Assembly (NCBI RefSeq): GCF_002843315.1
Contig: NZ_MVDD01000002.1
Location: forward strand, 62,001-126,000
DNA length: 64,000 nt
From: Labilibaculum filiforme
GTDB lineage: Bacteria; Bacteroidota; Bacteroidia; Bacteroidales; Marinifilaceae
Direction: 5' to 3'
The notes beneath the pieces are model-generated. The model searched no databases and was not told the origin of the DNA. It worked only from the letters and a program-made list of their open reading frames with translations. The position numbers and the translations under genes are program-made. Each line of letters starts with the position of its first letter. The first letter of the stretch is position 1. Below, one piece after another: positions 21,716-36,781 of the stretch.

Positions 21716-22387
21716 TTATTTACGAATACTCTTAATCATTTCAATCGTATTCTTAACCTTTCCGCTTAATTCATCGAAATTACCTGTTTCTATTACCTGC
21801 TTGCTTATTAATTGTGAACCCATTCCTACACAATGCACTCCTGCATGGAACCACTGAGTTAAGTTCTCTTTTTCGGGTTTTACACCTCCTGTAGGCATGA
21901 TCGATGACCATGGAAATGGACCTTTTACAGCTTTCACAAACTCCGGACCACCAACTTGTTCTCCCGGAAAAATCTTTACTACCTCGGCTCCTAGTTCTTC
22001 TGCATATGAAATCTCTGTTAAAGAACCACAACCTGGCGACCAAGCAATTTTTCTGCGGTTACATACCTTGGCCATTTCTGCATTTAAAATTGGAGAAACA
22101 ACAAAATTTGCACCCAATTGAATGTACAGGGAAGTGGTACCGGCATCAATCACCGAGCCTACTCCTAAAATCATTTCGGGACATTCTTTGATTGCCCATT
22201 TATTCAACTCACCAAACACTTCGTGAGCATAATCGCCTCGGTTCACAAATTCAAATACCCTAGAACCACCTTGGTAACATGCTTTCACAACCTGCTTACA
22301 AATTTCAACATCAGAATGAAAAAAAACAGGAATTATACCAATTTCTTTCATTTTTAACACTACTTCTATTCTTGAAAATCTTGCCAT
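21716..22387 (-). CDS. eda: KDPG/KHG aldolase
   Basis: A 223-residue class I aldolase that cleaves 2-keto-3-deoxy-6-phosphogluconate to pyruvate and glyceraldehyde 3-phosphate. Features are GVGSVIDAGT, the Schiff-base lysine in EVVKIFPGE, and the phosphate loop MPTGGVKPEKENL. The length is normal. It is the last step of the proposed oxidative mannose route, following the KDG kinase after 113 bp. It could also act on 4-hydroxy-2-oxoglutarate. Confidence 0.92.
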   Translation of the reverse strand: MARFSRIEVVLKMKEIGIIPVFFHSDVEICKQVVKACYQGGSRVFEFVNRGDYAHEVFGELNKWAIKECPEMILGVGSVIDAGTTSLYIQLGANFVVSPILNAEMAKVCNRRKIAWSPGCGSLTEISYAEELGAEVVKIFPGEQVGGPEFVKAVKGPFPWSSIMPTGGVKPEKENLTQWFHAGVHCVGMGSQLISKQVIETGNFDELSGKVKNTIEMIKSIRK

Positions 22388-22395
22388 TACTATTC

Positions 22396-22499
22396 TAATT
22401 ATGAGATATAAGTTATGAATTATGAGTTGCCTTTCTTTATTAAAAAAAGCATTCCATTTTTCAAATTCATAACTATTAATTCATCATTTATAATTCAGT
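22396..22499. repeat. Hairpin-forming intergenic repeat
   Basis: AT-rich spacer between aldolase and kinase with a perfect inverted repeat GTTATGAATT (22412-22421) / AATTCATAAC (22464-22473) and further imperfect pairing. Such hairpins are frequent in Bacteroidetes spacers; it may stabilise or process the transcript. Confidence 0.5.
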
Positions 22500-22500
22500 A

Positions 22501-23544
22501 TTACCTTGCTACTCGTCCGGAAGCATCACCATTCATTAATTTCTCTACTTCTTCCACCGTAACTTGATTGTAATCGCCATAAATAGTATGTTTTAAACAA
22601 GAAGCCGCAACTGCAAAGTTTAATGCTTTTTGATCGTTTTCGGGCCAGGTTATTAATCCATAAATTAATCCTCCCATAAACGAATCACCGCCACCAACAC
22701 GATCAACAATGTGAGTAATTTGGTAGGTATTATTTGCCTTGTAAAGCGTTTTTCCATCATACAAAACTCCTGTCCAAGAATTGTGATTCGCACTAATCGA
22801 TCCACGCAAAGTGGTAATTACCTTTTTACAACGAGGAAATTGTTTCGTAATTTGCTGTGAAACAGAAAGGTAAGCATCTGCTTCTACATGACCACCAGTA
22901 ATATCAAGACCTTCAGGACTAATCCCTAAAACTTTTTCAGCATCTTCTTCGTTTCCTAGAATCACATCGCAACCAGCAACCAGTTCCGGCATAATTTCGC
23001 CTGCGGTTTTACCATACTTCCAAAGGTTTTTTCGGTAGTTTAAATCGGTAGAAACAGTAATTCCTCTTTTGTTGGCTTCTTTAATTGCTTCTAAACAAAC
23101 CTCTGCCGCTCCTTGCGAAATTGCTGGCGTAATGCCTGTCCAATGAAACCATGAAGCACCTTCAAAAACCTGATTCCAATCGATCATTCCCAATTCTATT
23201 TCGGAAATTGCTGAATGAGCCCGATCGTAAACCACCTTGCTACCACGACTAACTGCGCCAGTTTCCAAAAAATAAATTCCTAAACGTTCCCCGCCATATA
23301 CAATATTATCAACGCCAACGCCATATTTGCGCAAATCCATACTGCACGTACGTCCTAAATCATTTTTGGGCAATCGAGTAACAAAATCTACCGCAAGACC
23401 ATAATTCGCTAATGAAACTGCAACATTTGCTTCACCACCACCATAAGTAGCTGTAAATTCACTTGCCTGATTAAAACGTAAATAATCCGGCGTTGCTAAT
23501 CTCAACATGATCTCACCAAAAGTGATCACTTTTCCTTCTTTCAT
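22501..23544 (-). CDS. kdgK: PfkB sugar kinase, probable 2-keto-3-deoxygluconate kinase
   Basis: A 347-residue ribokinase/PfkB family protein with the N-terminal GGGEANVAVSLANYG substrate motif and the C-terminal DRVGGGDSFMGGLIYGL anion hole and catalytic Asp. It sits between mannonate dehydratase and KDPG aldolase, the classical neighbours of KDG kinase, so phosphorylation of KDG to KDPG is the best call. PfkB substrates cannot be read with certainty from sequence. Confidence 0.85.
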   Translation of the reverse strand: MKEGKVITFGEIMLRLATPDYLRFNQASEFTATYGGGEANVAVSLANYGLAVDFVTRLPKNDLGRTCSMDLRKYGVGVDNIVYGGERLGIYFLETGAVSRGSKVVYDRAHSAISEIELGMIDWNQVFEGASWFHWTGITPAISQGAAEVCLEAIKEANKRGITVSTDLNYRKNLWKYGKTAGEIMPELVAGCDVILGNEEDAEKVLGISPEGLDITGGHVEADAYLSVSQQITKQFPRCKKVITTLRGSISANHNSWTGVLYDGKTLYKANNTYQITHIVDRVGGGDSFMGGLIYGLITWPENDQKALNFAVAASCLKHTIYGDYNQVTVEEVEKLMNGDASGRVAR

Positions 23545-23569
23545 TATTTTAATTCTTTATTCTCCTTAA

Positions 23570-24646
23570 TTAATCTTCTTTCTCAACTCCTGACAAAGCC
23601 GCTTTCATATATCCCATTGCATATGCCATACCCGCATGCCAAGGTGCACTGCAAGTCATTTGTGGTGTATGATCTGGGATTAGCACTCCCTGAAAATTAT
23701 TCTTCTTCAATATTCTAAGGATTTTCACCATGTCGATATCTCCCTCATCTACAAATACTTCTTTGTAATTAGGTACTTTTCCAACAATATTTCTGAAGTG
23801 AATATATCCCAGCTTATTTTGTTTTGAATAAGAATCGGTTGCTTCGTAAACATCGCCTTCTGTCATTTCGGCTACCGAGCCCAAACAAAATTCTAACTTG
23901 CTATTTTCACTCGGATAAATATCCAATAATCGCTGATACATATCTGGTTGATAAACCAAACGAGGTGTATTTCGAACGTAAGGCATCGGCGGATCATCTG
24001 GGTGAGCGGCAAGAATAACTCCTGCTTCCTCGGCAACCGGCAAACTATTTTCTAAGAAATACTGCAAGCGCTTCCACAATTCGTCGTGGTCGATTCTTGG
24101 CAATGAGCCTTCTGGAGCATTTTTATCGTAAACCATGTTCCAGACCATTCCATTGGGAATTGGTGTTTCATCCACACTACCATCCATTCCTACCGATTCG
24201 GCTCCTCCACGAGCATAGGCTCCAATATCTCGACTCGAAACTCCTGCCAACGAAAAATTGTATCCGAAATAGGGAATTCCAGCTTTTCCAACAATTCGAA
24301 TCTGTTCTTTTACTAGCTCCATTTGCTCCTCTTTTTTAGGACCATCCAATAAAATATCATGCCAAATGGCTGGATCGAAATTTTCAATTGCTTCCAATTG
24401 CAAACCATGACTGTTAAGGTCATTTTTAATCTTTACAATCTCTTCCAAACTCCAAAGCTGACCAGAACCTGCTCCTCCCCATCCCTCTTTTTGTCCAATA
24501 GGTTGATTGGCATTGTCTTTATTGTTGGAATCATTTCCGAAATAATCTACCAAGTGAATAACTACATGAGTAGCCCCACATTGTTTGGCAAATTTATAAT
24601 GCTCTTCGTTAAGCATGTGTTTGTACAATCCGAATCCTAACTTCAT
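23570..24646 (-). CDS. uxuA: Mannonate dehydratase (UxuA family)
   Basis: A 358-residue TIM-barrel dehydratase converting D-mannonate to 2-keto-3-deoxygluconate. It shares blocks with UxuA: AEEAGVILAAHPDDPP, FCLGS, IHFRN, EGDIDMVKIL and PDHTPQM, the metal-binding His, Cys and Asp positions. It is shorter than E. coli UxuA (about 394) and divergent at the N-terminus. The start overlaps the CoA-transferase stop (TAATG). No hexuronate isomerase or fructuronate reductase is nearby, so mannonate probably comes from mannose rather than glucuronate. Confidence 0.88.
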   Translation of the reverse strand: MKLGFGLYKHMLNEEHYKFAKQCGATHVVIHLVDYFGNDSNNKDNANQPIGQKEGWGGAGSGQLWSLEEIVKIKNDLNSHGLQLEAIENFDPAIWHDILLDGPKKEEQMELVKEQIRIVGKAGIPYFGYNFSLAGVSSRDIGAYARGGAESVGMDGSVDETPIPNGMVWNMVYDKNAPEGSLPRIDHDELWKRLQYFLENSLPVAEEAGVILAAHPDDPPMPYVRNTPRLVYQPDMYQRLLDIYPSENSKLEFCLGSVAEMTEGDVYEATDSYSKQNKLGYIHFRNIVGKVPNYKEVFVDEGDIDMVKILRILKKNNFQGVLIPDHTPQMTCSAPWHAGMAYAMGYMKAALSGVEKED

Positions 24647-25833
24647 TACTTATTATTTAATAGTTTCTTAATCTCCTCATCGCTATAATCACAATATTCC
24701 TTCAAAATTTCTGCCGCATGCTCATTTAGTAATGGAGCCGGTTTGTATACCTTTTGAGGTGTATCACTAAAAGAAACTGGAAAACCGGTAGTTTTTACGG
24801 CTCCAACAGTTGGATGATCGTATTCTATAATCATCTGATTGTGTTTAATCTGCGGATCATCAACCATTTCGTTGAAAGTATTTACTTGCGAACACCAAAT
24901 GTCCTGTTCCAATAGTATCTCCAGCCACTCTTCTGTTGTTTTGGTTTTAAATACCTCATCAAAATCGAATCGAATTTGATCTCTATTATCACCAATATTA
25001 TTGGAAGCAAACTCCTCTGAATCGTATTTCTTTAAGCCTACAACCTGAGCCAGTTTCTGTACCGAATTCATGCCAATAGCAACATAAGAATCTTTCGTAT
25101 TGTAAAGACCATAAGGCGCGCCAATCCACGGATTCGGAATTCCACTCTCACTTCTTTCAGGATATTCTCGATTGCTTAAGTAGGCTGTAATTTCCTGAAC
25201 ATGAAAGCCAACAATAGAATTCAACAGATTAGCCTCAATTTTTTGTCCTTTTCCAGAATTTGTTCTGGAATAAACTGCTGCCAATACAGATTGTGTAATA
25301 AATAAACTGGTTAATAAATCGGCTTGACCAACAGCTGTAACTACCGGTAAATCTCCTTTTTTTCCATTTAAAGCCGGACCTCCACTAATCGACTGAGCCA
25401 ATAAATCTTGTCCAGGTCGTTTTAAATACGGACCTGAAGCACCATATCCCGAACTAGAGCAATAAATCAAAGCTGGATTTAGTTTTTTAATGTCCTCGTA
25501 GCCCAAACCAAGGCGTTCCATTACACCTGGTCTAAAATTTTCCAATAGAATATCAGCCTTACAAATAATATCTTTTGCAATTTTCCTGCCCTCTTCCGAT
25601 TTTAGATCTAAAGCAATACTTTTCTTATTTCTGTTAAAGCTGATGAAAGAAATACTTTCCCCATTAGGATAGATATTTCCATAAGCATAATGGCGCATCC
25701 AATCCCCTTTTATTGGCTCGATTTTAATGATATCGGCTCCCATATCTCCCAACATCTGTGTTGCCCATGGCCCTTGCGCCAATTGTGAAAAATCGGCAAC
25801 GACCAAACCTTTTAAAGGTCCATTATTTTCCAT
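24646..25833 (-). CDS. CaiB/BaiF (family III) CoA transferase
   Basis: About 395 residues. I start it at the ATG at 25833 (MENNGPLKGL), because the upstream extension overlaps the hydratase gene. Family III features are LKGLVVADFSQLAQGPWATQMLGDMGADIIKIE at the N-terminus, the AlaLeuAsp segment with the catalytic Asp in SGGPALNGKKGDLP/GQADL, and RPGVMERLGLGYEDI. It transfers CoA between carboxylic acids. It is coupled to an enoyl-CoA hydratase and a solute-binding-like protein, a combination I associate with actinobacterial and proteobacterial genomes. Substrate unknown. Confidence 0.9.
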   Translation of the reverse strand: MENNGPLKGLVVADFSQLAQGPWATQMLGDMGADIIKIEPIKGDWMRHYAYGNIYPNGESISFISFNRNKKSIALDLKSEEGRKIAKDIICKADILLENFRPGVMERLGLGYEDIKKLNPALIYCSSSGYGASGPYLKRPGQDLLAQSISGGPALNGKKGDLPVVTAVGQADLLTSLFITQSVLAAVYSRTNSGKGQKIEANLLNSIVGFHVQEITAYLSNREYPERSESGIPNPWIGAPYGLYNTKDSYVAIGMNSVQKLAQVVGLKKYDSEEFASNNIGDNRDQIRFDFDEVFKTKTTEEWLEILLEQDIWCSQVNTFNEMVDDPQIKHNQMIIEYDHPTVGAVKTTGFPVSFSDTPQKVYKPAPLLNEHAAEILKEYCDYSDEEIKKLLNNK

Positions 25834-25837
25834 CTTC

Positions 25838-26608
25838 TTATTTATTTTTTTGTATAAAATCCTGAATTGCTTTTTGTGCTTCTTCTCCAAGAAATAGTTT
25901 CTTTACCGTATTTGCTTCATCATCTATTCGCTGTTTAAATGGCATTTCGGTAAGACTCAAATTGGCCAGTCTTTTTAAGTCTGCGATAGATTTTGAAGGT
26001 CTTCGAGATAGCTTTTTTGCAAAATCGAATACTTGAAGCAAAAAATCATCATCACTAAAAACACGATTCACAATTCCCCAATCGTACAATTGTTTGGCAT
26101 CGAGCGGCGTTCCCATAAATAGCATTTCTTTTACTCGATTGATTCCAATTTTCTGAACCAAGCGTTGTGTTCCGCCACCACCTGGAATCAAACTTAAAAA
26201 CACCTCAGGAAGTCCCATTGTTGCTTTTTCTGAAGCCAGAATTAGATCGCAGGCTAAAGGAATTTCGAATCCTCCTCCTAAAGCAAACCCATTAATGGCT
26301 GCAATCCACGGTTTAGTAGAATTCTCAATCGACTCGTACAACAGCTTTCCTTTTTCCTGAAATGAAATGAATTCTTCAGAAGTCTGATTTCCATATTCTT
26401 TAATATCGGCACCAGCCATAAAAGCACGCCCTTCTCCGCGAATAATGGCAACTTTTACGTCCTTATTCGCATTTATGCTACTGATGGCTTCAATAATTTC
26501 ATCCATCATTTTTCTGTTCATTGCATTTAACTGATCGGGTCGGTTAAAAACTAAAACCGCAATCCCATTTTCAATTTCAACAAAAATATTTTTAAATGTT
26601 TTATCCAT
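25838..26608 (-). CDS. Enoyl-CoA hydratase/isomerase family protein
   Basis: A crotonase-fold protein of about 256 residues from the ATG at 26608, which gives an 8-bp ATGGATAA overlap with the upstream gene; an in-frame ATG at 26632 is less likely. Oxyanion-hole segments AFMAGADIKEYG and NGFALGGGFEIPLACD are present, and the Glu pair at PEVFLSLIPGGGGTQRL is typical of hydratases. Adjacent to a CoA transferase, so both probably handle the same acyl-CoA. Substrate not predictable. Confidence 0.9.
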   Translation of the reverse strand: MDKTFKNIFVEIENGIAVLVFNRPDQLNAMNRKMMDEIIEAISSINANKDVKVAIIRGEGRAFMAGADIKEYGNQTSEEFISFQEKGKLLYESIENSTKPWIAAINGFALGGGFEIPLACDLILASEKATMGLPEVFLSLIPGGGGTQRLVQKIGINRVKEMLFMGTPLDAKQLYDWGIVNRVFSDDDFLLQVFDFAKKLSRRPSKSIADLKRLANLSLTEMPFKQRIDDEANTVKKLFLGEEAQKAIQDFIQKNK

Positions 26609-27752
26609 TACAAAGCTCTTTGTACAATTCATTTAACAGTTTCATGAGTTTTTCTGATTCAATATTTTTCAAGACACCTTCGTGCAAAAGGCATGCTCCT
26701 TGTTCCTGAAAACTATTCCACATCGGATGTTGCGGTCGTATATAAGCATCCTTCATTGTTTTCATGGTATTTGTAAAAAAATCCGAACACAATTCGTTGT
26801 TCTCTTTACTGGTCCACGCAACTAAATTTCCTGGCTGTCCGCCCTCTTTTGTATAAATCCCTTTTTGAATTTTCGCATCTGCTACAAAACTTACAAAATC
26901 GACTGCCGTTTTCACTTCCTTACAATTGGCAGAAATTGCTAAACCAACACCTCCCATAATGGTAGATATTTCCTGTTTCGGATTTACCGGACTATTGGTA
27001 AAATGAACCAAGTTCTTCGAATATCCCTTTCTCGAATAATTTGTATATCCGAATAAATAGGGAGAGTAAACAATTTCATTTCCTTCTCCCATTCGATCTA
27101 AAATCTGAATTGGATTCCAATTCATTGACTCTGGATGAATAAAGTCCAAATGTTTCTTAATTTCATTCAGTGCATTTACGCCTACAGTTTTGTTAAGCGT
27201 ATAATCCTTTATAAAATCTCTTCCCCCATCCTGAGCGCAAATAGTAAGAAATACGCACCAAAAATCTGTCGGACAAAGTGCCCATGCTACAGACTTACGA
27301 CTCGGTAGCGTTTTGTAGTAGGCGAATAATTCCTCTCTTGATTTTGGCAAACCAGAACATCCAAGCTCTGCAAGCAAATCTTTACGATAGGCGGCCACCA
27401 AAGCTGCGGCATCAACAGGCAAAGCATACAAGTTATTCTTAAAATTGTAGGTTTGATAACTTGCCCCTACCGATTCTTTGGCATGCATATCCAATACATC
27501 TTTCGAAATTTTATCTTTCAAATTCAAAAGTAAATTATTAGCATCTGCCTGTCCCATATAGGGATGATCGATGGTAATAAAATCGTATTTCCCAATAAGA
27601 TCTTCAATAGGCATATCACCAAACTCCTTCAATGAACGAATATCCCACTTGATGTTCACATTGGGATTTCTCTTTGAAAACTCTTTGGAGGCTGCAATCA
27701 ATGGTTCATATCCTCTTGGATGATCCCATGCAATGCCTTTTAATTGTATCAT
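26601..27752 (-). CDS. Solute-binding-protein-like protein without signal peptide
   Basis: A 383-residue protein with the fold features of family 1 sugar-type ABC solute-binding proteins: N-lobe KEFSKRNPNVNIKW, YDFITIDHPYMGQADA, and C-lobe MGGVGLAISANCKEVKTAVDFVSFV. It begins directly with IQLKGIAWDHPRGYEPL and has no signal peptide, lipobox or membrane segment. No ABC permease or ATPase is in the window. Together with the coupled hydratase and CoA transferase genes it forms a module. It may be a cytosolic ligand-binding or enzymatic protein. Operator 2 lies about 30 bp upstream of its start, so it is the first gene of its unit. Confidence 0.75.
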   Translation of the reverse strand: MIQLKGIAWDHPRGYEPLIAASKEFSKRNPNVNIKWDIRSLKEFGDMPIEDLIGKYDFITIDHPYMGQADANNLLLNLKDKISKDVLDMHAKESVGASYQTYNFKNNLYALPVDAAALVAAYRKDLLAELGCSGLPKSREELFAYYKTLPSRKSVAWALCPTDFWCVFLTICAQDGGRDFIKDYTLNKTVGVNALNEIKKHLDFIHPESMNWNPIQILDRMGEGNEIVYSPYLFGYTNYSRKGYSKNLVHFTNSPVNPKQEISTIMGGVGLAISANCKEVKTAVDFVSFVADAKIQKGIYTKEGGQPGNLVAWTSKENNELCSDFFTNTMKTMKDAYIRPQHPMWNSFQEQGACLLHEGVLKNIESEKLMKLLNELYKELCNG

Positions 27753-27780
27753 TATTCTACTCTTTTTTAGTGTAATTTTT

Positions 27781-27800
27781 GTGCCTTAACGGTTTGGCAA
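27781..27800 (-). promoter_or_regulatory. LacI-type operator 2
   Basis: GTGCCTTAACGGTTTGGCAA, a close match to the other three palindromes, lies 29 bp before the solute-binding-like gene. It probably controls the run from that gene to the aldolase. Confidence 0.75.
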
Positions 27801-27804
27801 ATTC

Positions 27805-28857
27805 TTAATTGAACCAACAAATAGCAACCGGAGTTTCTACAGTAATTTTCGATTTCGATTTTAACTCTCCAGTTTCCTGATTTATTTCGAAAACAACAAG
27901 CTTATTGGAATCCTGATTTGCCACGATCAACCACTTCCCGGATGGATCAATAGTAAAATCACGTGGTGTTTTTCCTTCTGTAGCTTGATACGCTACAACT
28001 GTAAGTGTCTTTTGTTCATCATCAATCTTGAAAATTGCAATAGAATCAGAACCTCTACAAGAAGCATACAAAAATTCTCCATTGGGATGAAGCCTTATTG
28101 CAGCACCTCCAAATTCTCCTTCATAATTATCAGGTACAAAAGCTATTTTTTGAAGCACTTCGAATTTATTCTTCTTCTTAGCACTTACAAATATTTCTCC
28201 CGATAATTCACTCAAAACATAGGCATAGTCTTCAAACTTATCCATCACCATATGCCTTGCACCTGCTCCAGCTTCTATGTTAATATCTAAATCGACATTT
28301 GCTTTCCATTCCTTGCTAACTTGATTGAAATTATAAGCTTTTGCCTGATCCAAACACAAATCAAGCACGTACATTTGATGATCTCCGAAAGGATAAATCA
28401 TATGCGCATGAGCAGCTTCCTGACGAACTTTATTCGGTCCTTTTCCTTGGTGCTGAATCAACTGATGATACGGACTTAAGCTGCCATCACTAGCAATTGG
28501 ATAAGAAACAATATTTCCTGAAACGTAATTGGCAACCACCAAATGATCGTGAATTATAGCCAAATGACAAGCATAATCTCCAACTAGCATTTGAGAATTA
28601 ATCAAATCTAATTCGCCCTTCTCACCAATTCGATAGGCAAAAACCTGCGGATGCAAACTTTCAAACATTTCCTCTAAAGCATACAAATACTGTTTATCCT
28701 CCGAAATCGCTAAATAACTTGGATTTCGTTGATTTGTATATTGGACTAAGTTCACCTCACCACTTTCCATATTCAACTGAAAACATCCAATGCCTTTTCC
28801 TTGAGGATTAGTTGCCGGTGATCCATTTTGCGTATAACTTCCTGTAAAAAAAATCAT
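27805..28857 (-). CDS. Lactonase, YbhE/6-phosphogluconolactonase-type beta-propeller
   Basis: About 350 residues from the ATG at 28857 (MIFFTGSYTQNG, the usual N-terminus); an in-frame ATG at 28902 would add 15 atypical residues. Seven-bladed propeller lactonase features are NPSYLAISEDKQYLYALEE, PNKVRQEAAHAHM, GAGARHMVMDKF, YASCRGSDSIAIFKI and GKTPRDFTIDPSGKWLIVANQDSN. The family hydrolyses sugar lactones. Located directly after the SDR dehydrogenase gene, it probably opens the mannono-lactone made there. 6-phosphogluconolactone is the alternative substrate. Confidence 0.85.
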   Translation of the reverse strand: MIFFTGSYTQNGSPATNPQGKGIGCFQLNMESGEVNLVQYTNQRNPSYLAISEDKQYLYALEEMFESLHPQVFAYRIGEKGELDLINSQMLVGDYACHLAIIHDHLVVANYVSGNIVSYPIASDGSLSPYHQLIQHQGKGPNKVRQEAAHAHMIYPFGDHQMYVLDLCLDQAKAYNFNQVSKEWKANVDLDINIEAGAGARHMVMDKFEDYAYVLSELSGEIFVSAKKKNKFEVLQKIAFVPDNYEGEFGGAAIRLHPNGEFLYASCRGSDSIAIFKIDDEQKTLTVVAYQATEGKTPRDFTIDPSGKWLIVANQDSNKLVVFEINQETGELKSKSKITVETPVAICWFN

Positions 28858-28931
28858 AATCGTTTTCAAAAATAATAGTTTACAATATAAGCTGGCAATC
28901 ATACTCGATTAACTTTCTCTAGCACAACAGT

Positions 28932-29732
28932 TTAATTCTTTTTTCGAGGAGGACGAGGATCGTATTGAATGGTATGGTTCATATAAGAACCATCGATGTA
29001 TAGATCTGTTCCGCTTATATAACTTGCCAAATCACTAGCTAAAAATGCCACCGTTGGAGCTATATCAGATACTTGTCCTAGTCTGCCCTGTGGAATCCAC
29101 TTTTCGAATTTATCGACTCCAAAATTGGCTATTTCTTGGCGGTTCATTTCTGTCTCGATTGCCCCTGGCGCAACCGATACAACACGTACATTACTATCCG
29201 CCAACTCCAACGACAAGCATTTTGAGAACATCTTTAATCCCGCTTTCGCTGAACAGTAATGAATTAGCCCTTTGCGAGGAACCACATCATGAATCGATGA
29301 AATGTTGATGATAACACCTCCACCCGATTTCTCCATTCGTTTACCTGCTTCTTTTGCACACAAAAAAGGTCCTTTAAGGTTAATTTGAAACACTCGATCC
29401 CATTCATCTTCCTCCATATCCAAAACATGCACAACACTTTCAGAACCAGCATTATTCACTAAAATATCTATTCCTCCAAAAGCATCATCCATTTGACTAA
29501 ACATTGCCTTCACTTCCTCCGATTTTGCAACATTCGCTCCAACAGCTACGGCTTTTACATTATAGTTTGAAGTAATTTCGTTAGCAAGTACTTCTGCTTT
29601 TTCTCTGTTGCTATAAAAGTTAATAATAACATCCGCTCCACACTTGGCCAATTCTCTACAAATCTCAGAACCAATACCCTGACTACCACCTGTAACCAAA
29701 GCTCTTTTTCCTTTTAAGTCTATTTCTCTCAT
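28932..29732 (-). CDS. SDR family sugar dehydrogenase (glucose 1-dehydrogenase-like)
   Basis: A 266-residue short-chain dehydrogenase: cofactor loop TGGSQGIGS (15-23), NNAGSE, catalytic Ser in NISSIHDVVP and YCSAK for Tyr/Lys. The SSIHDVVP...HY and VAPGAIETEMN blocks resemble Bacillus glucose 1-dehydrogenase (SSVHEMIP, GPGAMNTPIN) more than fatty-acid reductases. It is followed by a lactonase gene. I infer an aldose 1-dehydrogenase, probably oxidising D-mannose to mannono-lactone in this setting. Substrate and cofactor need assay. Confidence 0.85.
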   Translation of the reverse strand: MREIDLKGKRALVTGGSQGIGSEICRELAKCGADVIINFYSNREKAEVLANEITSNYNVKAVAVGANVAKSEEVKAMFSQMDDAFGGIDILVNNAGSESVVHVLDMEEDEWDRVFQINLKGPFLCAKEAGKRMEKSGGGVIINISSIHDVVPRKGLIHYCSAKAGLKMFSKCLSLELADSNVRVVSVAPGAIETEMNRQEIANFGVDKFEKWIPQGRLGQVSDIAPTVAFLASDLASYISGTDLYIDGSYMNHTIQYDPRPPRKKN

Positions 29733-29750
29733 CCTTCTGATTTTGTTTTT

Positions 29751-30443
29751 TTACATGATTCCAAACTTTTCAAAAGCATCAACGGTACTCATGCCTTCTT
29801 CCAATGCTTTTTTCACTAATTGTTCCCCTCTTGCTTTTTCAATTGCGCCCTCGAAAGCATCTTTAACCACTTCTTTAGGAACAATTAAAACACCATCTCG
29901 ATCGCCATAAACAACATCACCTGGTTTAATTCTAATTCCGTCAATCTCTATCGGTACACGATAGTCAATTACTTTGCCTCTTGGTCCCTGATCCTGCGCA
30001 TATCCTCCGAACGAAAAAGTTGGGAAATTTAAAGCCAATATTTCATTCGTATCTCGCGAATAGCCATTAACAACAGCACCTGCAGCTTTTAATTTTAATG
30101 CTCTAGTGCTCATTAATCCACCCCAAAGTGCATATCTGGGAGAAGAACCACTACAGATATAAACTTCATCTTCCTGTAAGCTATCCAAAGCTTCAAACAT
30201 AATTCCAAAAGGCTTTTTCATTAAAGGATTATTGCTCTCTTCGCATGCCTCTTCAAAAACATCAGCTTCCAACACCGGCATTGCTCGTCCTATCACAACA
30301 AAATCGTTGTTAACAGGCTTAAAGTTTGGCGACAGAAATTGATGCTGGTAACCTAATTTATCCAGCACATCACCCACTAAAGCCACAAAAAGTTCTTTTT
30401 TTGCGATGCTAAATAACTCTTTATCATTTGTCCAAGTTGCCAT
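29751..30443 (-). CDS. RraA family protein
   Basis: A 230-residue protein of the RraA/HMG-aldolase-like family (GDVLDKLGYQHQFL, GRAMPVLEADVF, GAVVNGYSRDTNEIL, GDVVYGDRDGVLIVP with metal-binding Asp). Members are RNase E regulators in Enterobacteria and 4-hydroxy-4-methyl-2-oxoglutarate aldolases or oxaloacetate decarboxylases elsewhere. In a sugar-acid cluster an aldolase or decarboxylase of a 2-keto acid is more likely than RNase control. It lies 4 bp after the cupin gene and 19 bp before the SDR gene. Confidence 0.85.
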   Translation of the reverse strand: MATWTNDKELFSIAKKELFVALVGDVLDKLGYQHQFLSPNFKPVNNDFVVIGRAMPVLEADVFEEACEESNNPLMKKPFGIMFEALDSLQEDEVYICSGSSPRYALWGGLMSTRALKLKAAGAVVNGYSRDTNEILALNFPTFSFGGYAQDQGPRGKVIDYRVPIEIDGIRIKPGDVVYGDRDGVLIVPKEVVKDAFEGAIEKARGEQLVKKALEEGMSTVDAFEKFGIM

Positions 30444-30446
30444 ATC

Positions 30447-30875
30447 TTAATTTTGTAAATTTTCAGTATAAATTTCACTCACCTTACTTCTTAATTCTAC
30501 CAATTCGTTTTCAGACAAATTATGAAACTCAAAATCTGCTAAATGTGTGTTTGATTTTTCAATAATTATCACTTCACTTCCTTCTTGCATCGCAATATTA
30601 TGCCATGTATTTTTTGGAATATTATAGGTAACTCCGGCTTGCATCAATTCCAGCTCATACTTCGGTTTATTATCCTGAATGCTTGCAGTAATCAAAACCA
30701 CCTCCCCTTTCAGTAATAAAAACACTTCATCGGTATGGAAATGAACATCTAACCTGGTGATGTTCTCTATCTTTTGATTTTCATCCGCATTAAGCTGAGC
30801 CACTTGCCACCCTTCTCGAATTAGAAAAGGATGGTATCCCTCTTCTTTAACCTCAAATTTCTCTATTAAACTCAT
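30447..30875 (-). CDS. Cupin domain protein
   Basis: A 142-residue single-domain cupin with DVHFHTDEVFLLLKGEVVLI (metal-binding His, His, Glu) and NIPKNTWHNIAM (third His). No catalytic role can be assigned; small cupins in sugar clusters are often isomerases, lactonase-like or ligand binders. Gaps to its neighbours are 4 bp (RraA) and about 70 bp (MFS porter), so it probably shares their transcript. Confidence 0.85.
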   Translation of the reverse strand: MSLIEKFEVKEEGYHPFLIREGWQVAQLNADENQKIENITRLDVHFHTDEVFLLLKGEVVLITASIQDNKPKYELELMQAGVTYNIPKNTWHNIAMQEGSEVIIIEKSNTHLADFEFHNLSENELVELRSKVSEIYTENLQN

Positions 30876-30943
30876 ATACTTTTATTTCTAATAATTGTGC
30901 CTGTTTTTGAAACAGATAAGCACTTTCATCCATGTAATAAGAA

Positions 30944-32392
30944 TTAATCCCATTTTTTATTCTTCCAATATCTTTCGATCTGTTCTAAGGTTTTTCCTTT
31001 TGTTTCCGGTACATATTTCCAGATGAACCAAATTGCAGGAAGGGTTAAGATTCCATACAAAAAGAAGGTACCACTTGGCTCTATTGTTTTAATGAAAACA
31101 GGATTGGTAAGCGTAATAAAAAAACCCGTTACCATTAATGAAAAACTTCCTATTGAGACAGCTAGACCTCTAATTCGTGTTGGGAAAATTTCACTGATAA
31201 TAACCCAAACAACCGGTCCAAACGAGAAGGCAAAACTTGCCACATAAAGGAGCAACGGAATAATTACCAGATTTGAACCTATTGCGAACATGATTCCAAC
31301 TCCGGTTAAAGACAGGAAAGCTCCCGTTACACCTACCAAAAGTAATTTACGTCGTCCAAATCGCTCTATATTTAAAATTGCCACAAAAGTAAATACAGAA
31401 TTTACAACTCCCACTAAGACAGCACCTAAGAAGGAACTTTCTACACTTTGAAAAGATTCGTTCAAAATATTGGGTGCAAAATACATGATTGCTGCAATAC
31501 CACTTAAGTGTGAAAACATGGGAAGAAGTATTCCAATCATGAGAGGTGTACGCATAAATGGCTTAAACAATTCTTTAATTCCTCCAGACTCTGCCTGAAC
31601 CATTTCATTGATCTGTTCCATCTGCTGTGTCGCCTCTTCTTTACCATTTATTCGTGTCATTATTGCTAATGCTTCCTCTTTTCGACCTTTTGAAACCAGC
31701 CATCTTGGACTTTTAGGCGAGAAAAATAGCAATGTTAGAAAGAGCAAAGCAATTGGAATCTCCGTTCCAAACATTCCCCTCCAAATTTCATGAACAAAGA
31801 GCCATGACCAAAATCCAGTCGCTTCGTTTGTTATGATCCCTGCAAGTTCACCAGCACTGTTTAATACAATCCAATCCACTAAAAATGCCAATAAAATACC
31901 CAGTGTTATGGATAGCTGATAGATGGATACAAATTTCCCTCTACTTTCAGGCTTGGTCAATTCCGAAATATAAATAGGTGCAACCACTGATGTAATTCCA
32001 ACACCAAGACCTCCAATTACTCGAACAATAATTAGAAAATTAAAAGAAAAGTGACTATTCGCTGTTAGCCAATGAGCATGTTCTGGATTGCCTAAAAACT
32101 GAGGAGGCAACATAGAACCTACAGCGGAAATTAGTAAACAACAAGCGGCAACGATCAATGCATTTTTACGCCCAATTCGATCGGTAATAATTCCCGAAAC
32201 AACACATCCGATAATAGTTCCCAGTAAAGCTGAGGAAACCACCCACCCCAACATTGCCGGCGATAAATCGAAATGAGCTTGCAAAAATGAATTGCAACCT
32301 GAAATAATTGCCGTATCATATCCAAATAGAAATCCTCCTATGGTAGAAACAAAACTAATGGTCAAGAGGTATAATGAACTTTTACTTTTCAT
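30944..32392 (-). CDS. Sugar porter family MFS transporter
   Basis: A 482-residue 12-helix MFS protein of the sugar porter family (XylE/GLUT-like): GFLFGYDTAIISG in helix 1, GIITDRIGRKNAL, PIYISELTKPESRGKFVSIYQL with PESRG, GRRKLLLVG and the terminal PETKGKTLEQIE. It has an unusual internal extension near residues 90-115. It probably imports mannose or another hexose across the inner membrane for the downstream dehydrogenase. The start codon abuts 97-bp repeat array B. It is the first gene of a run to the SDR and lactonase. Confidence 0.92.
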   Translation of the reverse strand: MKSKSSLYLLTISFVSTIGGFLFGYDTAIISGCNSFLQAHFDLSPAMLGWVVSSALLGTIIGCVVSGIITDRIGRKNALIVAACCLLISAVGSMLPPQFLGNPEHAHWLTANSHFSFNFLIIVRVIGGLGVGITSVVAPIYISELTKPESRGKFVSIYQLSITLGILLAFLVDWIVLNSAGELAGIITNEATGFWSWLFVHEIWRGMFGTEIPIALLFLTLLFFSPKSPRWLVSKGRKEEALAIMTRINGKEEATQQMEQINEMVQAESGGIKELFKPFMRTPLMIGILLPMFSHLSGIAAIMYFAPNILNESFQSVESSFLGAVLVGVVNSVFTFVAILNIERFGRRKLLLVGVTGAFLSLTGVGIMFAIGSNLVIIPLLLYVASFAFSFGPVVWVIISEIFPTRIRGLAVSIGSFSLMVTGFFITLTNPVFIKTIEPSGTFFLYGILTLPAIWFIWKYVPETKGKTLEQIERYWKNKKWD

Positions 32393-32626: not shown

Positions 32627-35506
32627 CTACTTAATTTTATAGGTTTCAACAGCATTTTTACCCAGCTGTAATTCAATAATTTTCCCTTTTTTATTCAAGC
32701 TTTTAGGATTTTCTTCAATCATATCCGTTTTCGAGATGCTCTTCACCTCTTTGTTTAGTTCTAACTGAATTTTCTTATCCAGCCCTTCTGCTTCCAACAA
32801 TCGAATAACAACATCACTGTCGTCTTCCGCTTTTTTGATGGTGGTAATCACTGTAAAAGGATCATTTGTACTTGCAAAACTTTTTGTTGCAGGCAAATCT
32901 CCAGCTTGTTTCTTCTGCTTTAGTACCGTATGTATTGGATGATTTTCTGCAACTCCAAAATGAAATCCATTCTTCCAACCCTCTCTATGAGAAGTAATTG
33001 AAAATTTAAAGGTATGACTTCCTTTTTGCTCGTACCAATTCCCTTGCCAATGACAGCTTTTATGTGTCGATAAAAGAATGGAATTAATAACCGGAAAATC
33101 TGCAGCATTCATGCTTGGATCTACCCAATCAGCAGTTACCACATTGGTAGACATGGTGAATCCATATCCACTTCCATTCGCAGTCATAAAGTTTTGAATC
33201 TCGCGAGGATGAATCTCTTCTGGCTTTTGAAGGTAAGTTCCACCCCAAGCAGAACCACCTGGACGCATTGTTAACTCATCTTCTCCCACATGAACCATTC
33301 CCATAGGAACATCGTAGGAAATTTTCGCACTATTTTTCATGTTTAACGGAAACATAACCCGCAACTGACGATTGTGTTCTCCTGGCCAATTGGGAATGGT
33401 ATATTCCAAGTCTATTTGTTTTTTCTGATGAAATACAGTAATATTTTGCTCAACTCGGAACGTATCCATTTCGAATTCTGATCGAAACTTAGAATATACA
33501 GCTCCCGTTTCAACTAAATTCCATGTACTTTCCTTCTGATGAGCACGCTCCATATTTCCGTAGTGAGGCGCGGTAACCGTTACAAACTCTCCAGCTCCAT
33601 TACCTTCATATCCCATATGAAAAAGATCACCTGCCACCATTGTACTGGTATTGAACACCTCTTTATTTAGTGTTTTATCGAATAGTTGAGTAATTCCACC
33701 TTGTCCGAATTTAATTGTATAAAACTGATTTTCACAATAATTTGAACCTGCCGTAATAGTAGCCGTTTCCTGTTTTCCTTTTTTAATGGTAAACGTTTTA
33801 TATCCTATTGATGGCATATTGCTTACACTAAATACCAGCTCTTTTTTTCCGTTAACGGTTGCCAGTTGTGTCGGAATTGTTTTACCCTCGCTGGTTGCAA
33901 GCATCCAATTCGTTCCCTTCAAATGTGAAATATCAACTCTTGCATAGCCATCTCTAGTCCATGACAAATCATTAAAAACAATCACATTTTGCGTTTTCTT
34001 CAAGTCTATTTTAGATGCAATACTCTCTAAAGATGAATCGAGTAGTTTTTTACCGATTTCATTTCCTGTTTCAAGTGCAAGTCGAAAAAGACTATCGGTA
34101 ATCTGCCCATTTTTTCCACCCCAACCATGATCAGGATAAATAGCATTGTACCAGGCTTCATCCAATTCTTTTTGTGGATACAATGAAAAATCATTGTTCA
34201 ACTCACAGTTGATCGTATTGAATATCTCAGCGGATGGAATTGCAACCGCAGCTTCTTTCTTAGCTTTAATAGCCTGATAGTGACCTGCCCCATGAATATA
34301 CAACCATAAATTTGGACGCTCCCCATAAATCGAATCAATTTTTGCTTCGGGCACATCCACTTCCTGTAAAAACTCCAATGCTGTTGAATGGGCGATTTCC
34401 GGAATATACCTCCCTGGCATTTTTGCAATCTCATTCCATCCCTCAATTACCTTTTTGTAATTTTTCGGTCCGCCAGCATCGGCACTAATCACAACAGCAT
34501 AATGTGGAGGTATATTTCTTTCACGGTAATACTCATTCCATCCTTTTAGTATTTTGTGTAACTCATGCATTGCAGTAATTGCATCCTCATCAAGCACCTT
34601 ATGATGGTAATGATACCAACCGTAATTCCCAGGACTATAGGTGAAAATACTTGTTCCATCAGGACTATACCATTTGTAAAATCCTTCTTTCATTCTAGAA
34701 ACAAACAGGTAGTCGATTCCTGATTTCTTAAATAACTGAGGAACCTGCAACGAACGTCCTGGAACATCAACATTATATGCTACATGAGCATCCATTCCTG
34801 GCATCTTTTTCTTAATCCAACGACGACCGAGGTAAGATTGACGAACCAATTGCTCTCCCGATTCTAAACCTTCATAAGGCTGAGTAAAAGTAGCTCCCCA
34901 CTCAAAATTTCCCGATTTATAAGTGTCAATTAGGCGTTGCTTGTTTTCCGGAGAATCTTCAATAACCTCCATCAAGTTCAAGGATTGCTCCATCTCAAAT
35001 TTAAATTCTGGAGCTTCCTCCATAAGATCCAATGCTGGCAATACAATTTTATGCACTCGTTCCTCCCGACAAGAATCTGGTGTATTCATCCAAGCAATGT
35101 CTTGATGCGATGAGACAATAACATGCAATTTACCCTCCCCAAAATAATCCCAATCGGCAGGAATTAAAGGTTCGAATAACTGTTTACTCACTACTTTTTC
35201 ACCTTTTGTTCTTTGGGTAAATTCAAGCATTCCTGAATTGCCAATAAGTGGCAACCAAATTTGTACAGAATCACTTTCAAGGGTAAAAAGACTAAGCTTT
35301 TCTCCTTGAAAAGTTACTTCTACTCCTTGTGTGGAATTCAATCCTGTTAAGTTTGCAAGCACTTTGTAAGTTCCATTTACTAATTCATATTGATAAGGCT
35401 TTTTATAAGAAAGCTCCAACATTTTCTCTGACACATTACCTGATACGGTTGATAGCAACCAACTCATAACAAATAAAAACAAGGCTATTTTCTTCATATT
35501 CAACAT
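32627..35506 (-). CDS. GH38 alpha-mannosidase, secreted
   Basis: A 959-residue GH38 enzyme, start at 35506 or the ATG three codons later (35497). It has a signal peptide ending near VSG. The zinc-site motif SSHQDIAWMNTP (His134, Asp136) and nucleophile segment NVDVPGRSLQVPQLF are present; YPDHGWGGKNGQITDSLF is shared with the larger GH38 at 17623. It lacks most of the long N-terminal region of that paralogue. Operator 3 lies 32 bp upstream of 35506, so it is probably induced by the LacI ligand. Confidence 0.95.
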   Translation of the reverse strand: MLNMKKIALFLFVMSWLLSTVSGNVSEKMLELSYKKPYQYELVNGTYKVLANLTGLNSTQGVEVTFQGEKLSLFTLESDSVQIWLPLIGNSGMLEFTQRTKGEKVVSKQLFEPLIPADWDYFGEGKLHVIVSSHQDIAWMNTPDSCREERVHKIVLPALDLMEEAPEFKFEMEQSLNLMEVIEDSPENKQRLIDTYKSGNFEWGATFTQPYEGLESGEQLVRQSYLGRRWIKKKMPGMDAHVAYNVDVPGRSLQVPQLFKKSGIDYLFVSRMKEGFYKWYSPDGTSIFTYSPGNYGWYHYHHKVLDEDAITAMHELHKILKGWNEYYRERNIPPHYAVVISADAGGPKNYKKVIEGWNEIAKMPGRYIPEIAHSTALEFLQEVDVPEAKIDSIYGERPNLWLYIHGAGHYQAIKAKKEAAVAIPSAEIFNTINCELNNDFSLYPQKELDEAWYNAIYPDHGWGGKNGQITDSLFRLALETGNEIGKKLLDSSLESIASKIDLKKTQNVIVFNDLSWTRDGYARVDISHLKGTNWMLATSEGKTIPTQLATVNGKKELVFSVSNMPSIGYKTFTIKKGKQETATITAGSNYCENQFYTIKFGQGGITQLFDKTLNKEVFNTSTMVAGDLFHMGYEGNGAGEFVTVTAPHYGNMERAHQKESTWNLVETGAVYSKFRSEFEMDTFRVEQNITVFHQKKQIDLEYTIPNWPGEHNRQLRVMFPLNMKNSAKISYDVPMGMVHVGEDELTMRPGGSAWGGTYLQKPEEIHPREIQNFMTANGSGYGFTMSTNVVTADWVDPSMNAADFPVINSILLSTHKSCHWQGNWYEQKGSHTFKFSITSHREGWKNGFHFGVAENHPIHTVLKQKKQAGDLPATKSFASTNDPFTVITTIKKAEDDSDVVIRLLEAEGLDKKIQLELNKEVKSISKTDMIEENPKSLNKKGKIIELQLGKNAVETYKIK

Positions 35507-35764: not shown

Positions 35765-36781
35765 TTACGCTCCACAAGATTTTCGAACTTCGATGCTACT
35801 ATCTAACATCTCCTGTTTATAAGCAGTAATGCCATCTTTTAAATTTTCCAGCAAAATATCAACAGCTCTACCTCCTAAATCCTCTACAGGTTGAGCTATT
35901 GAAGTTATAGGAGGATCAACTAAATCAAAAGCACTCATTTGACCAAAACTAACGATAGCTACTTCATTTGGAACAAGAACTTTACGTCGTTTCATTTCCC
36001 TTAAACCCGAAGCAGTTAAAAAGTGAGTTGCAAATACAATCCCATCAATATCATTTGAAGAATTGAGCATGATTTCAAATACAGCAGGCATTTGCTCGTC
36101 AAAAGTTTCGTAATTCAATTCATGCACAAAACCATCTTTTACTTCCAGCTCAAACTTCTTCATTGTTTGTTGATAACCCACCAATCGTTCGTGAATTGCC
36201 TCCAAGCCTGGTTTTAAAGTAATAAATCCAATGCGTTTCCGTCCCATCTTTACCAACTGCTCAACCGCCATTGCGACTCCACCCACATTATCAACACCAA
36301 CAAAATTAGTTTCAATATCAGGATATCGTCTATCGATAAGCACAAAAGGAAAATTACTTTTCTTCAATCTCAATATATCTTCCTCATTCTGTTGAGTGGA
36401 TGCAATAATCAAACCATCTACTTGTCTGTCGAGCATCGATTCAATTAGCTCCGACTCTCTTTCCTTACTTTCTCCAGTACTACTAAAAATAACATTATAG
36501 CCAGAAAGTCTTGCCTTGGTCTCTATTCTTCGTGCTATTCTTGCGTAGAAACTATCCGATATATTGGGTATCACTAAGCCAATCATATCGCTCTTTCCCC
36601 GACTTAAACCTCGCGCTAATTGATTGGCTCTGTAATTATTTTCTTCAGCAAACTTTATTATTGTTTCTTGAGTATCCTTACTAACCCGCTTTTCATCACC
36701 ATGTCCATTAAGAACAATAGATATTGTTGATTTAGAGATATTTAATCTCTTAGACATATCTTGTAATGTAATTTTCTTCAC
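35765..36781 (-). CDS. LacI family transcriptional regulator
   Basis: A 338-residue LacI/GalR regulator: N-terminal HTH (ITLQDMSKRLNISKSTISIVLNG), hinge helix NQLARGLSRGKSD, and a periplasmic-binding-like sugar domain (IGLVIPNISDSFYARIARRIE, DGLIIAST, FVGVDNVGG). It heads the mannoside cluster. Operator 4 is 14 bp upstream of its own start and similar palindromes precede GH38 and catabolic genes, so it is probably an autoregulated local repressor. The inducer is likely mannose or a catabolite, inferred from the regulon. Confidence 0.93.
   Translation of the reverse strand: MKKITLQDMSKRLNISKSTISIVLNGHGDEKRVSKDTQETIIKFAEENNYRANQLARGLSRGKSDMIGLVIPNISDSFYARIARRIETKARLSGYNVIFSSTGESKERESELIESMLDRQVDGLIIASTQQNEEDILRLKKSNFPFVLIDRRYPDIETNFVGVDNVGGVAMAVEQLVKMGRKRIGFITLKPGLEAIHERLVGYQQTMKKFELEVKDGFVHELNYETFDEQMPAVFEIMLNSSNDIDGIVFATHFLTASGLREMKRRKVLVPNEVAIVSFGQMSAFDLVDPPITSIAQPVEDLGGRAVDILLENLKDGITAYKQEMLDSSIEVRKSCGA

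Follow-up and report, generated by a model that had tools for sequence, protein, structure and literature searches.

The gene cluster described here, from the genome of Labilibaculum filiforme, is probably an alpha-mannoside catabolic operon in which mannose would be taken oxidatively to 2-keto-3-deoxygluconate (KDG). The oxidative mannose pathway is of a known, archaeal kind, and this one is a new variant. The window, i.e. the whole stretch of DNA analysed (64,000 nt), corresponds to positions 62,001–126,000 of the forward strand of contig NZ_MVDD01000002.1 (assembly GCF_002843315.1). Our proposal is built on gene content, gene conservation, residue conservation and the context swaps observed, and it is from these that we infer every substrate and reaction. 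A preliminary description of this DNA had likewise proposed oxidative mannose use via mannonate. That remains the best reading, and comparison with related loci backs it, through both the recurrence of the gene cassette and the sharing of a dehydratase (UXL) and an RraA-like protein (RRAA); however, the pathway as first drawn was incomplete, omitting five of the 11 genes, and it leaves three of these, the CoA trio, unexplained.

Gene content and organization of the cluster

Eleven genes lie within 21716–32392 of the window, all of them open frames on the minus strand. From the sugar porter to the aldolase the intergenic gaps are ≤113 bp and several genes overlap, so that these genes fit a single operon. 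The six genes named initially proved to be minus-strand open frames of the expected position and family, but a cupin, the RraA-like protein, an SBP_bac_1-like protein, an enoyl-CoA hydratase and a CaiB CoA-transferase had been left out. The four alpha-mannosidases noted in the cluster are present (two GH38 and two GH92) and lie outside this range, three to the left (12616–21180) and one to the right (32627–35506).

The cluster, read along the minus strand, is headed by a LacI-family regulator (35765–36781; PF00356, 30.7 bits against a cut-off of 27, and PF13377). The mannosidases, GH38a (32627–35506; PF01074, 111 bits), GH38b (17623–21180; PF01074, 84 bits), a GH92 enzyme with a PA14 domain (14951–17617; PF07971, 535 bits; PF07691) and a further GH92 enzyme (12616–14916; PF07971, 530 bits), all minus-strand, would release mannose from alpha-mannan or high-mannose N-glycans. 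The translation of GH38a has an N-terminus judged hydrophobic by eye, which suggests export. An MFS sugar porter (30944–32392; PF00083, 351 bits) would import the mannose and an SDR, the proposed D-mannose 1-dehydrogenase (28932–29732; glucose 1-dehydrogenase subfamily NF005559, 237 bits, cut-off 215), would oxidise it at C1 to mannono-lactone, to be opened to D-mannonate by a 7-bladed lactonase, the proposed mannono-lactonase (27805–28902; PF10282, 306 bits). UXL, a divergent UxuA-family protein (23570–24646; PF03786, 162.9 bits, cut-off 23.7), is proposed from its gene context to dehydrate D-mannonate to KDG, so that aldose dehydrogenase and mannonate dehydratase families are encoded in one operon. 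A PfkB-family kinase, the proposed KDG kinase (22501–23544; PF00294, 106 bits), and a KDPG/KHG aldolase (21716–22387; NF005499, 374.2 bits, cut-off 275) would complete the route to pyruvate and glyceraldehyde 3-phosphate.

Recurrence of the cassette among relatives

The 80 nearest UXL loci were kept for comparison; as loci were picked by UXL, this gene is present in every cassette. The mannosidase cassette was found in 46 of the 80 and is thus not special to the L. filiforme genome; its recurrence across several Bacteroidota families means that the gene block is not due to chance. Genes of GH38, GH92 or GH76 type occur in 43 of the 46 cassettes (GH38 in 39) and GH85 in the other three. Homologues of the porter (>300 bits) are found in 37, the cupin in 39 and a LacI homologue in 11, while the CoA trio is complete in 25, absent from 20 and partial in one. 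KDG kinase is present in only 5/46, and we regard the kinase and KDPG aldolase as local extras. RRAA, by comparison, accompanies UXL in 60 of the 80 loci.

Residues S146, Y159 and K163 of the SDR are near-invariant (n=48); its substrate cannot be told from sequence, and D-mannose is proposed as its sugar. The lactonase does not reach the 6-phosphogluconolactonase cut-off (NF008258, 165.5 against 370 bits). Six of the ten cassettes without a lactonase carry an M24-family gene, compared with none of the other 36 (Fisher p = 2e-5), and in these six it replaces the lactonase. In two Ensifer UXL loci an SMP-30-type lactonase directly follows UXL, and an RRAA homologue is encoded on the opposite strand at a distance of ~6 kb. 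Both patterns favour the proposed route.

UXL and D-mannonate as a probable shared intermediate

UXL scores below both NCBIfam mannonate dehydratase cut-offs (94.5 against 199.55 for TIGR00695 and 136.8 against 191 for NF003027), and from its sequence is a divergent UxuA relative not filed as an equivalog. Its residues H215, C254, H283, D325 and H326 are near-invariant (n=81 sequences) and align with the S. suis mannonate dehydratase 3ban, an enzyme with a catalytic tyrosine; by the roles in that enzyme they are presumably the His, Cys, His and Asp metal ligands and the catalytic His. The alignment ends before the position of the tyrosine, which was not located in UXL.

Six loci of glucuronate type have the arrangement UxaC–SDR–Nramp–UXL, four of them with RRAA. 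UXL and RRAA of these loci are 76–82% identical to those of the window, whereas the SDR is only ~32% identical to the window SDR, and in the UXL tree the window falls inside a supported clade of 14 rows that mixes mannosidase and UxaC contexts. That UXL and RRAA are common to both cluster types suggests that the two share D-mannonate as an intermediate, and the exchange of the SDR agrees with differing entry steps into mannonate. Against this, the SDRs of the UxaC loci do not reach the D-mannonate oxidoreductase cut-off. In the mannosidase setting, the gene content makes the SDR and lactonase the natural suppliers of D-mannonate.

Alternative substrates and the exit from KDG

The SDR and lactonase could serve another aldose such as glucose, with mannonate arriving from elsewhere and the mannosidases as mere neighbours. 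Indeed, glucose 1-dehydrogenase is the best curated family for the SDR, and SDR specificity is fluid. However, UXL and this SDR are kept with mannosidase genes across families, and no UxuA-type enzyme is known to use gluconate, so we consider this quite improbable. Mannose might also pass mainly through a kinase and phosphomannose isomerase encoded elsewhere, leaving the operon for free mannonate or uronates. An isomerase and a fructuronate reductase had been thought absent; the operon holds no mannose kinase, as described, but the whole genome does contain a type I phosphomannose isomerase match (C1:299974–300306, 48.7 bits, cut-off 22) and a full-length canonical UxuA (C2:409281–410438), beside which a D-mannonate oxidoreductase is encoded (384 bits against a cut-off of 281). 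The isomerase match makes a kinase route for mannose elsewhere in the genome possible, and the isomerase may serve biosynthesis. As the main route it is a very improbable explanation, because uronate use would not need the operon's sugar porter, SDR and lactonase, and the canonical UxuA–UxuB pair is already available separately.

Mannose oxidation to KDG by this operon being the preferred reading, two exits come into question. The kinase falls below three NCBIfam KDG kinase equivalog cut-offs (NF041332, 214.8 against 440; NF040938, 116.6 against 400; NF052444, 42.5 against 400), and its best NCBIfam match, NF041633 (493 bits), lies under the fusion-protein cut-off of 700. RRAA (29751–30443; PF03737, 108 bits), a candidate metal-dependent aldolase or decarboxylase in which R130–D131 is near-invariant (n=61), would have its role where mannonate and KDG meet, in the simplest case as a KDG aldolase bypassing the kinase; we hold this specific role to be rather unlikely, and it would be redundant in the window because KDG kinase and KDPG aldolase are both encoded there. 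RRAA could, with a similar and clearly less than even chance, be a housekeeping or regulatory neighbour, with kinase and KDPG aldolase as the sole exit. This would accord with the presence of both genes in the window and of the kinase in a few cassettes, and E. coli RraA is a regulator. On the other hand, among UXL loci of at least 18 kb RRAA is present in 46/54 and KDG kinase in 5/54, RRAA stays with UXL in both contexts, and RraA appears in the figure legend of haloarchaeal mannanase clusters with manD (PMC10963439). The small cupin (30447–30875) has no Pfam match and a weak WbuC-type cupin match (26 against a 42-bit cut-off); the entry closest to its structure model (pLDDT 91) in the PDB is 3d0j, of unknown function.

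Relation to known pathways

For such bacteria, the mannose of alpha-mannan and N-glycans represents a sizeable source of carbon. Annotation usually seeks a mannose kinase and an isomerase, so organisms with a kinase-free route could be recorded as unable to use mannose or be misinterpreted, and the cassette offers a marker for this route in Bacteroidota. The Thermoplasma acidophilum pathway, comprising AldT, ManD and KDG aldolase, similarly starts with an NAD-dependent dehydrogenase that oxidises mannose without a kinase, and continues through a mannonate dehydratase to KDG; in that pathway spontaneous hydrolysis of the lactone is reported, and KDG is split without prior phosphorylation (PMC6901390). 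The L. filiforme cluster differs in its lactonase, kinase, KDPG aldolase, UxuA-type dehydratase, dedicated mannosidases and CoA trio. In the haloarchaeon Natronoglomus mannanivorans, for which mannose catabolism has been predicted, mannan-degrading enzymes are also clustered with mannonate dehydratase genes, and KDG kinase and KDPG aldolase provide a semi-phosphorylative exit; that system is archaeal and has beta-mannanases, and the excerpted account describes no CoA trio (PMC10963439). The UxaC–UxuB–UxuA glucuronate pathway has the step from mannonate to KDG in common, but is entered from fructuronate.

A possible CoA-dependent dehydratase

The CoA trio consists of a protein with a solute-binding-protein fold, SBP_bac_1-like (26601–27752; PF01547, 59 bits), a crotonase-family enoyl-CoA hydratase (25838–26632; PF00378, 191 bits) and a CaiB/Frc family III CoA-transferase (24646–25890; PF02515, 369 bits). 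E123 and E143 of the hydratase (n=28) and D191 of CaiB (n=30) are near-invariant and are presumably the catalytic residues. The binding protein (model pLDDT 93) resembles sugar-binding SBPs at TM ~0.8. Inspection by eye of an alignment of 19 sequences (the window and 18 of 26 relatives) showed no N-terminal hydrophobic stretch, and no permease family occurs among the operon genes, which argues against an ABC-transporter solute-binding protein. In E. coli, carnitine dehydration by CaiB and CaiD likewise pairs a family III CoA-transferase with a crotonase acting on a 3-hydroxy acid, and is not known to involve a binding-protein partner; here the trio is set in sugar catabolism and includes one. 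As the window CaiB falls below the L-carnitine CoA-transferase cut-off (NF002914, 135.6 against 413), by sequence it at most works like carnitine CaiB and is not a member of that family.

By this analogy we tentatively suggest that the trio performs a second, CoA-dependent elimination of the aldonate C3 oxygen: the binding protein would present the aldonate, CaiB would load CoA onto it, the hydratase would remove the C3 substituent and CaiB would then hand the CoA to the next aldonate. Such a second dehydratase would be redundant, as the trio adjoins UXL. Relatives of the trio with MaoC sit in L-fucose/L-rhamnose clusters, and with similar reserve the module, with a cytosolic sugar-binding protein, might be a general CoA-thioester sugar-acid dehydratase, its hydratase type set by C3 stereochemistry, which would close a gap in Bacteroidota at the L-fuconate dehydratase step and provide a second, metal-independent dehydration in mannose cassettes. 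The crotonase type would suit D-mannonate, whose C3 is left in Fischer projection and matches S-3-hydroxyacyl-CoA; the MaoC type would suit L-fuconate and L-rhamnonate (C3 right, matching R). Known sugar-acid dehydratases include metal-dependent TIM-barrel, enolase-type, UxaA and IlvD-type enzymes, and the module, if rightly interpreted, would be new biochemistry beside these types. Algoriphagus is a Bacteroidetes genus. The module could also explain why the oxidative L-fucose locus of Algoriphagus marincola HL-49 lacks FucD (L-fuconate dehydratase), although the part of the description consulted names no CoA-transferase module (PMC5507952).

In nine genomes a MaoC-type module lies next to an L-fucose oxidation gene set that is otherwise complete. 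In three (G487, G615 and G595) there is no free dehydratase in the families searched (PF13378, PF00920, PF04295): PF13378 scores ≤105 bits, PF00920 has one gene and PF04295 lies solely inside a galacturonate-type operon. The other six hold an extra candidate elsewhere, which counts against the trio as dehydratase: G170, G222, G467 and G472 have a second PF04295 gene, while G021 (179 bits) and G646 (166 bits) each carry an additional PF13378 gene. In favour of the trio, G170 and G467 have a second deoxysugar cluster with a UxaA gene and without the module in the 19–20 kb covered. The trio might instead strip a C3 ether substituent (e.g. 3-O-methyl) or handle some other modified mannonate that is no substrate for UXL, making decorated mannans usable. 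Its behaviour as an optional block beside a universally kept UXL (loci being selected by UXL) would fit, as would the accompaniment of the module by enolase-type or UxaA genes in alphaproteobacterial L-fucose-type clusters, and the L125 relative, whose neighbours include an agarase-type protein and a homologue of aldehyde dehydrogenase, where the aldonate could bear a 3,6-ether. Plain dehydration better fits the three genomes without a free candidate in the families searched, and we regard the ether reading as unlikely. Also counting against the trio as dehydratase, enolase-type genes lie near the module in clusters L116, L146–L149 (L147 also with UxaA) and in G214 (L141), and at L127 and L080 the binding protein occurs without CaiB within 20 kb.

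A mannoside gene block and its conservation

The gene block runs on the reverse strand from 38074 down to 12616, within a 5.2 Mb genome (window at G000:C2:62001-126000). At its 38074 end, on the same strand, lie a GntR-type and then a LacI-type regulator. These are followed by GH38, an MFS porter, a cupin, an RraA-like protein (RRAA, 29751-30443), a short-chain dehydrogenase (SDR, 28932-29732), a lactonase (27805-28902), a solute-binding protein (26601-27752), an enoyl-CoA hydratase of the crotonase type (25838-26632), a CaiB CoA-transferase (24646-25890), a divergent UxuA-family dehydratase (UXL, 23570-24646), a PfkB kinase and a KDPG aldolase, with GH38, GH92-PA14 and GH92 at the 12616 end. 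Intergenic gaps do not exceed 113 bp from porter through aldolase, and reading frames overlap along the stretch from the binding protein through the hydratase and CaiB to UXL. The preliminary description, which read 21716-32392 as a complete oxidative mannose pathway via mannonate, named six of the eleven genes there and left out the other five, including the binding protein, hydratase and CaiB (the CoA trio); its observation is confirmed in part and its interpretation supported in part. Oxidative conversion of mannose to 2-keto-3-deoxygluconate (KDG) is likely, and the overlooked trio is the more surprising part of the finding.

A UXL search of genome contigs returned 288 relatives, two of which, at 90% identity in a Labilibaculum MAG and 89% in a Marinilabiliaceae record, place the genome in Bacteroidota, and 17 window proteins were compared with the open frames of the best 80 of these 288 loci, the labels GH76, GH85, UxaC, Nramp and M24 being taken from one Pfam-scanned representative per cluster of similar frames. 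We defined a cassette as UXL, RRAA and SDR, each above 300 bits, and by this definition all three are present in 46 of the 46 cassettes found among the best 80. At least one of GH38, GH92 and GH76 occurs in 43 of the 46 (GH38 in 39, GH92 in 15, GH76-type in 15), and GH85 in three. Cupin was found in 39, the porter in 37, the LacI homologue in 11 and KDG kinase in five; nine of these loci span less than 18 kb, so that each count of absence is a maximum. Among the families that carry the cassette are Marinilabiliaceae, Prolixibacteraceae, Flavobacteriaceae, Fulvivirgaceae, Chitinophagaceae, Sphingobacteriaceae and Tannerellaceae. The cassette, which appeared novel to the preliminary description, is widespread and is a new form of a pathway whose kind is already known: oxidative mannose use is described for Thermoplasma (PMC6901390) and predicted for haloarchaea (PMC10963439). 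No Bacteroidota mannose cassette appeared in the literature searched, to the extent that its text was accessible; subscription journals lay mostly outside that literature, and this is weak evidence of novelty.

Some loci carry further genes. Five Flavobacteriaceae cassettes (L071, L072, L075, L076 and L099) have a second MFS-SDR-CaiB set downstream of UXL, and four others (L037, L065, L089 and L092) carry a member of the GlcNAc 2-epimerase family, which may be a mannose isomerase or epimerase. At a Chitinophagaceae UXL locus (L080:5116-11842), UXL and RRAA are joined by an enolase-type gene, by genes for an SSF transporter and a PhyH-type dioxygenase, and by a binding-protein gene unaccompanied by CaiB.

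Mannonate as intermediate

At six non-cassette loci (L040, L043, L044, L046, L053 and L059), UxaC is followed in turn by an SDR other than that of the cassettes, an Nramp gene and UXL, and RRAA precedes them at four of the six; one UxaC, that of L059, was checked by Pfam (637.7 bits). At these loci UXL is 76-80% and RRAA 77-82% identical to the window proteins, and the SDR about 32%. Neither of the two SDRs scanned (L040 and L053) scored above the cut-off for D-mannonate oxidoreductase; from gene order we infer that the SDRs of the UxaC loci are fructuronate reductases. When 81 UXLs were placed in a maximum-likelihood tree, the window protein fell in a clade of 14 rows (support 97/92) that contains both kinds of locus. 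Since UxaC and the reductase lead to mannonate, mannonate is most likely the substrate of UXL, and at mannosidase loci the SDR and lactonase would supply it. UXL scores below the curated UxuA cut-offs and thus represents a divergent clade. Its residues 62-329 align with the Streptococcus suis mannonate dehydratase 3ban, and four residues, which we take to be metal ligands, together with the next histidine are near-invariant across the 81 sequences. The Nramp-type metal transporter (labelled from L040) between SDR and UXL at all six UxaC loci fits a supply of Mn for UXL.

The lactonase position also bears on the route. Ten of the 46 cassettes have no lactonase homologue above 100 bits, and six of these ten (L065:7609-8796, L088, L094, L095, L098 and L111) contain an M24-family gene, as against none of the 36 with a lactonase (Fisher p = 2e-5, a guide only since the rows are related). 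This gene is Xaa-Pro peptidase-like, and its position varies: it may separate SDR from UXL or hydratase from CaiB, or else adjoin the SDR. The L065 protein has PepQ as its best NCBIfam match, at 144 bits against a cut-off of 630. We regard the M24 gene as a candidate non-orthologous sugar lactonase. L070 has a hydratase frame of unusual length (615 aa), in which a lactonase may be concealed. On two Ensifer plasmids, UXL (409 bits) directly precedes an SMP-30-type lactonase, and an RRAA homologue lies some 6 kb away; such substitution and adjacency are as predicted by a lactone intermediate.

The CoA trio and related modules

Across the 46 cassettes the trio is complete in 25, wholly absent in 20 and partial in one (L067, lacking CaiB). 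No signal-like N-terminus was seen by eye in 19 aligned binding-protein sequences, which share numerous invariant aromatic and charged residues; the model of the protein has a pLDDT of 93, and its closest matches among solved structures are proteins that bind maltose, trehalose and sulfoquinovose (TM about 0.8). Two glutamates are kept in the hydratase and one aspartate in CaiB, presumably the catalytic residues. As the 80 loci were picked by UXL, they cannot reveal trio cassettes without it; a search for such cassettes found the binding protein in three of ten genomes of one genus, and the one neighbourhood viewed of the three (L140) contained UXL.

Outside the cassettes, the binding protein matched in 27 of 296 genomes of the phylum, strongly (E 1e-69 or better) in 16 of the 27, and 15 of these 16 have a CaiB homologue within about 4 kb; in G286 (L127) none was found at that distance or within 20 kb. 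A plasmid search gave 145 records, 90 of them from Sinorhizobium. Wider stretches were viewed for 14 of the 16 strong-match genomes (all but G025 and G202), for 16 of another set of 21 (all but G025, G202, G619, G643 and G654) and for 14 of the 145 plasmid records, three being S. meliloti pSymB. In the stretches so surveyed, binding protein and CaiB are adjacent. Most of these modules include a Gfo/Idh oxidoreductase and a MaoC hydratase and lie in L-fucose or L-rhamnose settings, with GH29, GH78, RhaT, rhamnose mutarotase and fuconolactonase-like genes; others combine a crotonase and an aldehyde dehydrogenase, beside which lies a GH2 that has a mannosidase Ig domain (L120 and, by similarity, L130). 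L120 is a second module in the L. filiforme genome itself (G000:C6:93188-94297), with the order binding protein-CaiB-CaiB-crotonase, neighboured by that GH2, the aldehyde dehydrogenase and a RhaT-family transporter; the 20 kb fetched held no UXL match.

Crotonases act on S-3-hydroxyacyl-CoA and MaoC hydratases on R-3-hydroxyacyl-CoA; the C3 hydroxyl lies on the S-like side in D-mannonate and on the R-like side in L-fuconate and L-rhamnonate. Among 38 module rows, 27 have MaoC, six a crotonase and five (L114, L119, L146, L149 and L151) no hydratase within the scanned distance, the annotation of L149 placing a MaoC further out. An L-fucose or L-rhamnose marker accompanies 26 of the 27 MaoC rows (all but L118), or 25 distinct loci, as L123 and L141 overlap; where RhaT is the sole marker (L139, and L117, which also has GH2), the row is weak, because RhaT occurs also in L120 and weakly in L130. 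Wherever a hydratase was detected at a deoxysugar-marked locus, MaoC was present (25 of 25 distinct loci). The crotonase rows comprise L120 and L130 beside GH2, the cassette L140, L125 beside an agarase-type protein (fitting D-galactose, not 3,6-anhydro-L-galactose), and L152 and L153, which have no assigned sugar. All 25 full cassettes have a crotonase, counted by homology to that of the window, and no MaoC homologue was found in the best 80 of 288 UXL loci. This split, seen in related loci that are not independent tests of a stereochemical rule and of which some have weak markers, is as expected from direct C2-C3 elimination of an aldonyl-CoA, and hints at such a reaction. Mixed rows also occur: L116 has an additional crotonase beside another CaiB, L131 a crotonase and an aldehyde dehydrogenase homologue farther off, and L129 MaoC and deoxysugar markers, yet also GH92.

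What the module may do

In nine genomes (L121, L122, L133-L136, L142, L159 and L160), fuconolactonase-like, L-fucose dehydrogenase, alcohol dehydrogenase and fumarylacetoacetate-hydrolase-type genes stand beside the module. At L121 the dehydrogenase is above its cut-off (NF052481, 357 of 300) and the fuconolactonase below (NF052480, 268 of 400), and names at the other eight clusters were assigned by similarity to L121. Within the three families PF13378, PF00920 and PF04295, no free aldonate dehydratase was found in G487, G615 and G595. Each has three PF13378 matches of at most 105 bits, presumably dipeptide epimerase, OSB synthase and enolase; one PF00920 gene, taken for IlvD; and one PF04295 gene (in G615, split over two frames) inside an operon of the galacturonate type, which also encodes homologues of UxaC, kinase and aldolase. 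Six of the nine (G170, G222, G467, G472, G021 and G646) have an extra PF04295 or PF13378 gene elsewhere, so that no gap is shown in these six; the extra UxaA of G170 and that of G467 belong to another deoxysugar cluster, one without the module. A published reconstruction notes L-fuconate dehydratase as absent from Algoriphagus marincola HL-49 (PMC5507952). The module may fill this missing step.

As a plain stand-in for a missing dehydratase, the trio is nevertheless rejected in the window, where UXL is present, and in L116 and L146-L149, which have enolase-type genes near the module, as does L141; such genes, with UXL in the mannose cassettes, argue against simple dehydratase replacement. A part in an ABC importer was rejected because the operon has no permease family and no signal peptide was seen, and a role of the CoA genes in a lactate or propionate route was set aside on reasoning. 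RraA as sole exit enzyme is weakened by the kinase and KDPG aldolase of the window. No CaiB module for sugar acids appeared in the literature searched, as far as its text was accessible, with subscription journals mostly outside it, which is weak evidence of novelty; CaiB had zero occurrences among the matches listed in one search.

Other genes in the window

An AAA ATPase at 8749-10704 has a weak OLD-like TOPRIM match below the cut-off. Unrelated to the finding, 38190-42250 encodes a cytochrome b (b6/petB type) and then a multihaem cytochrome with TPR repeats.
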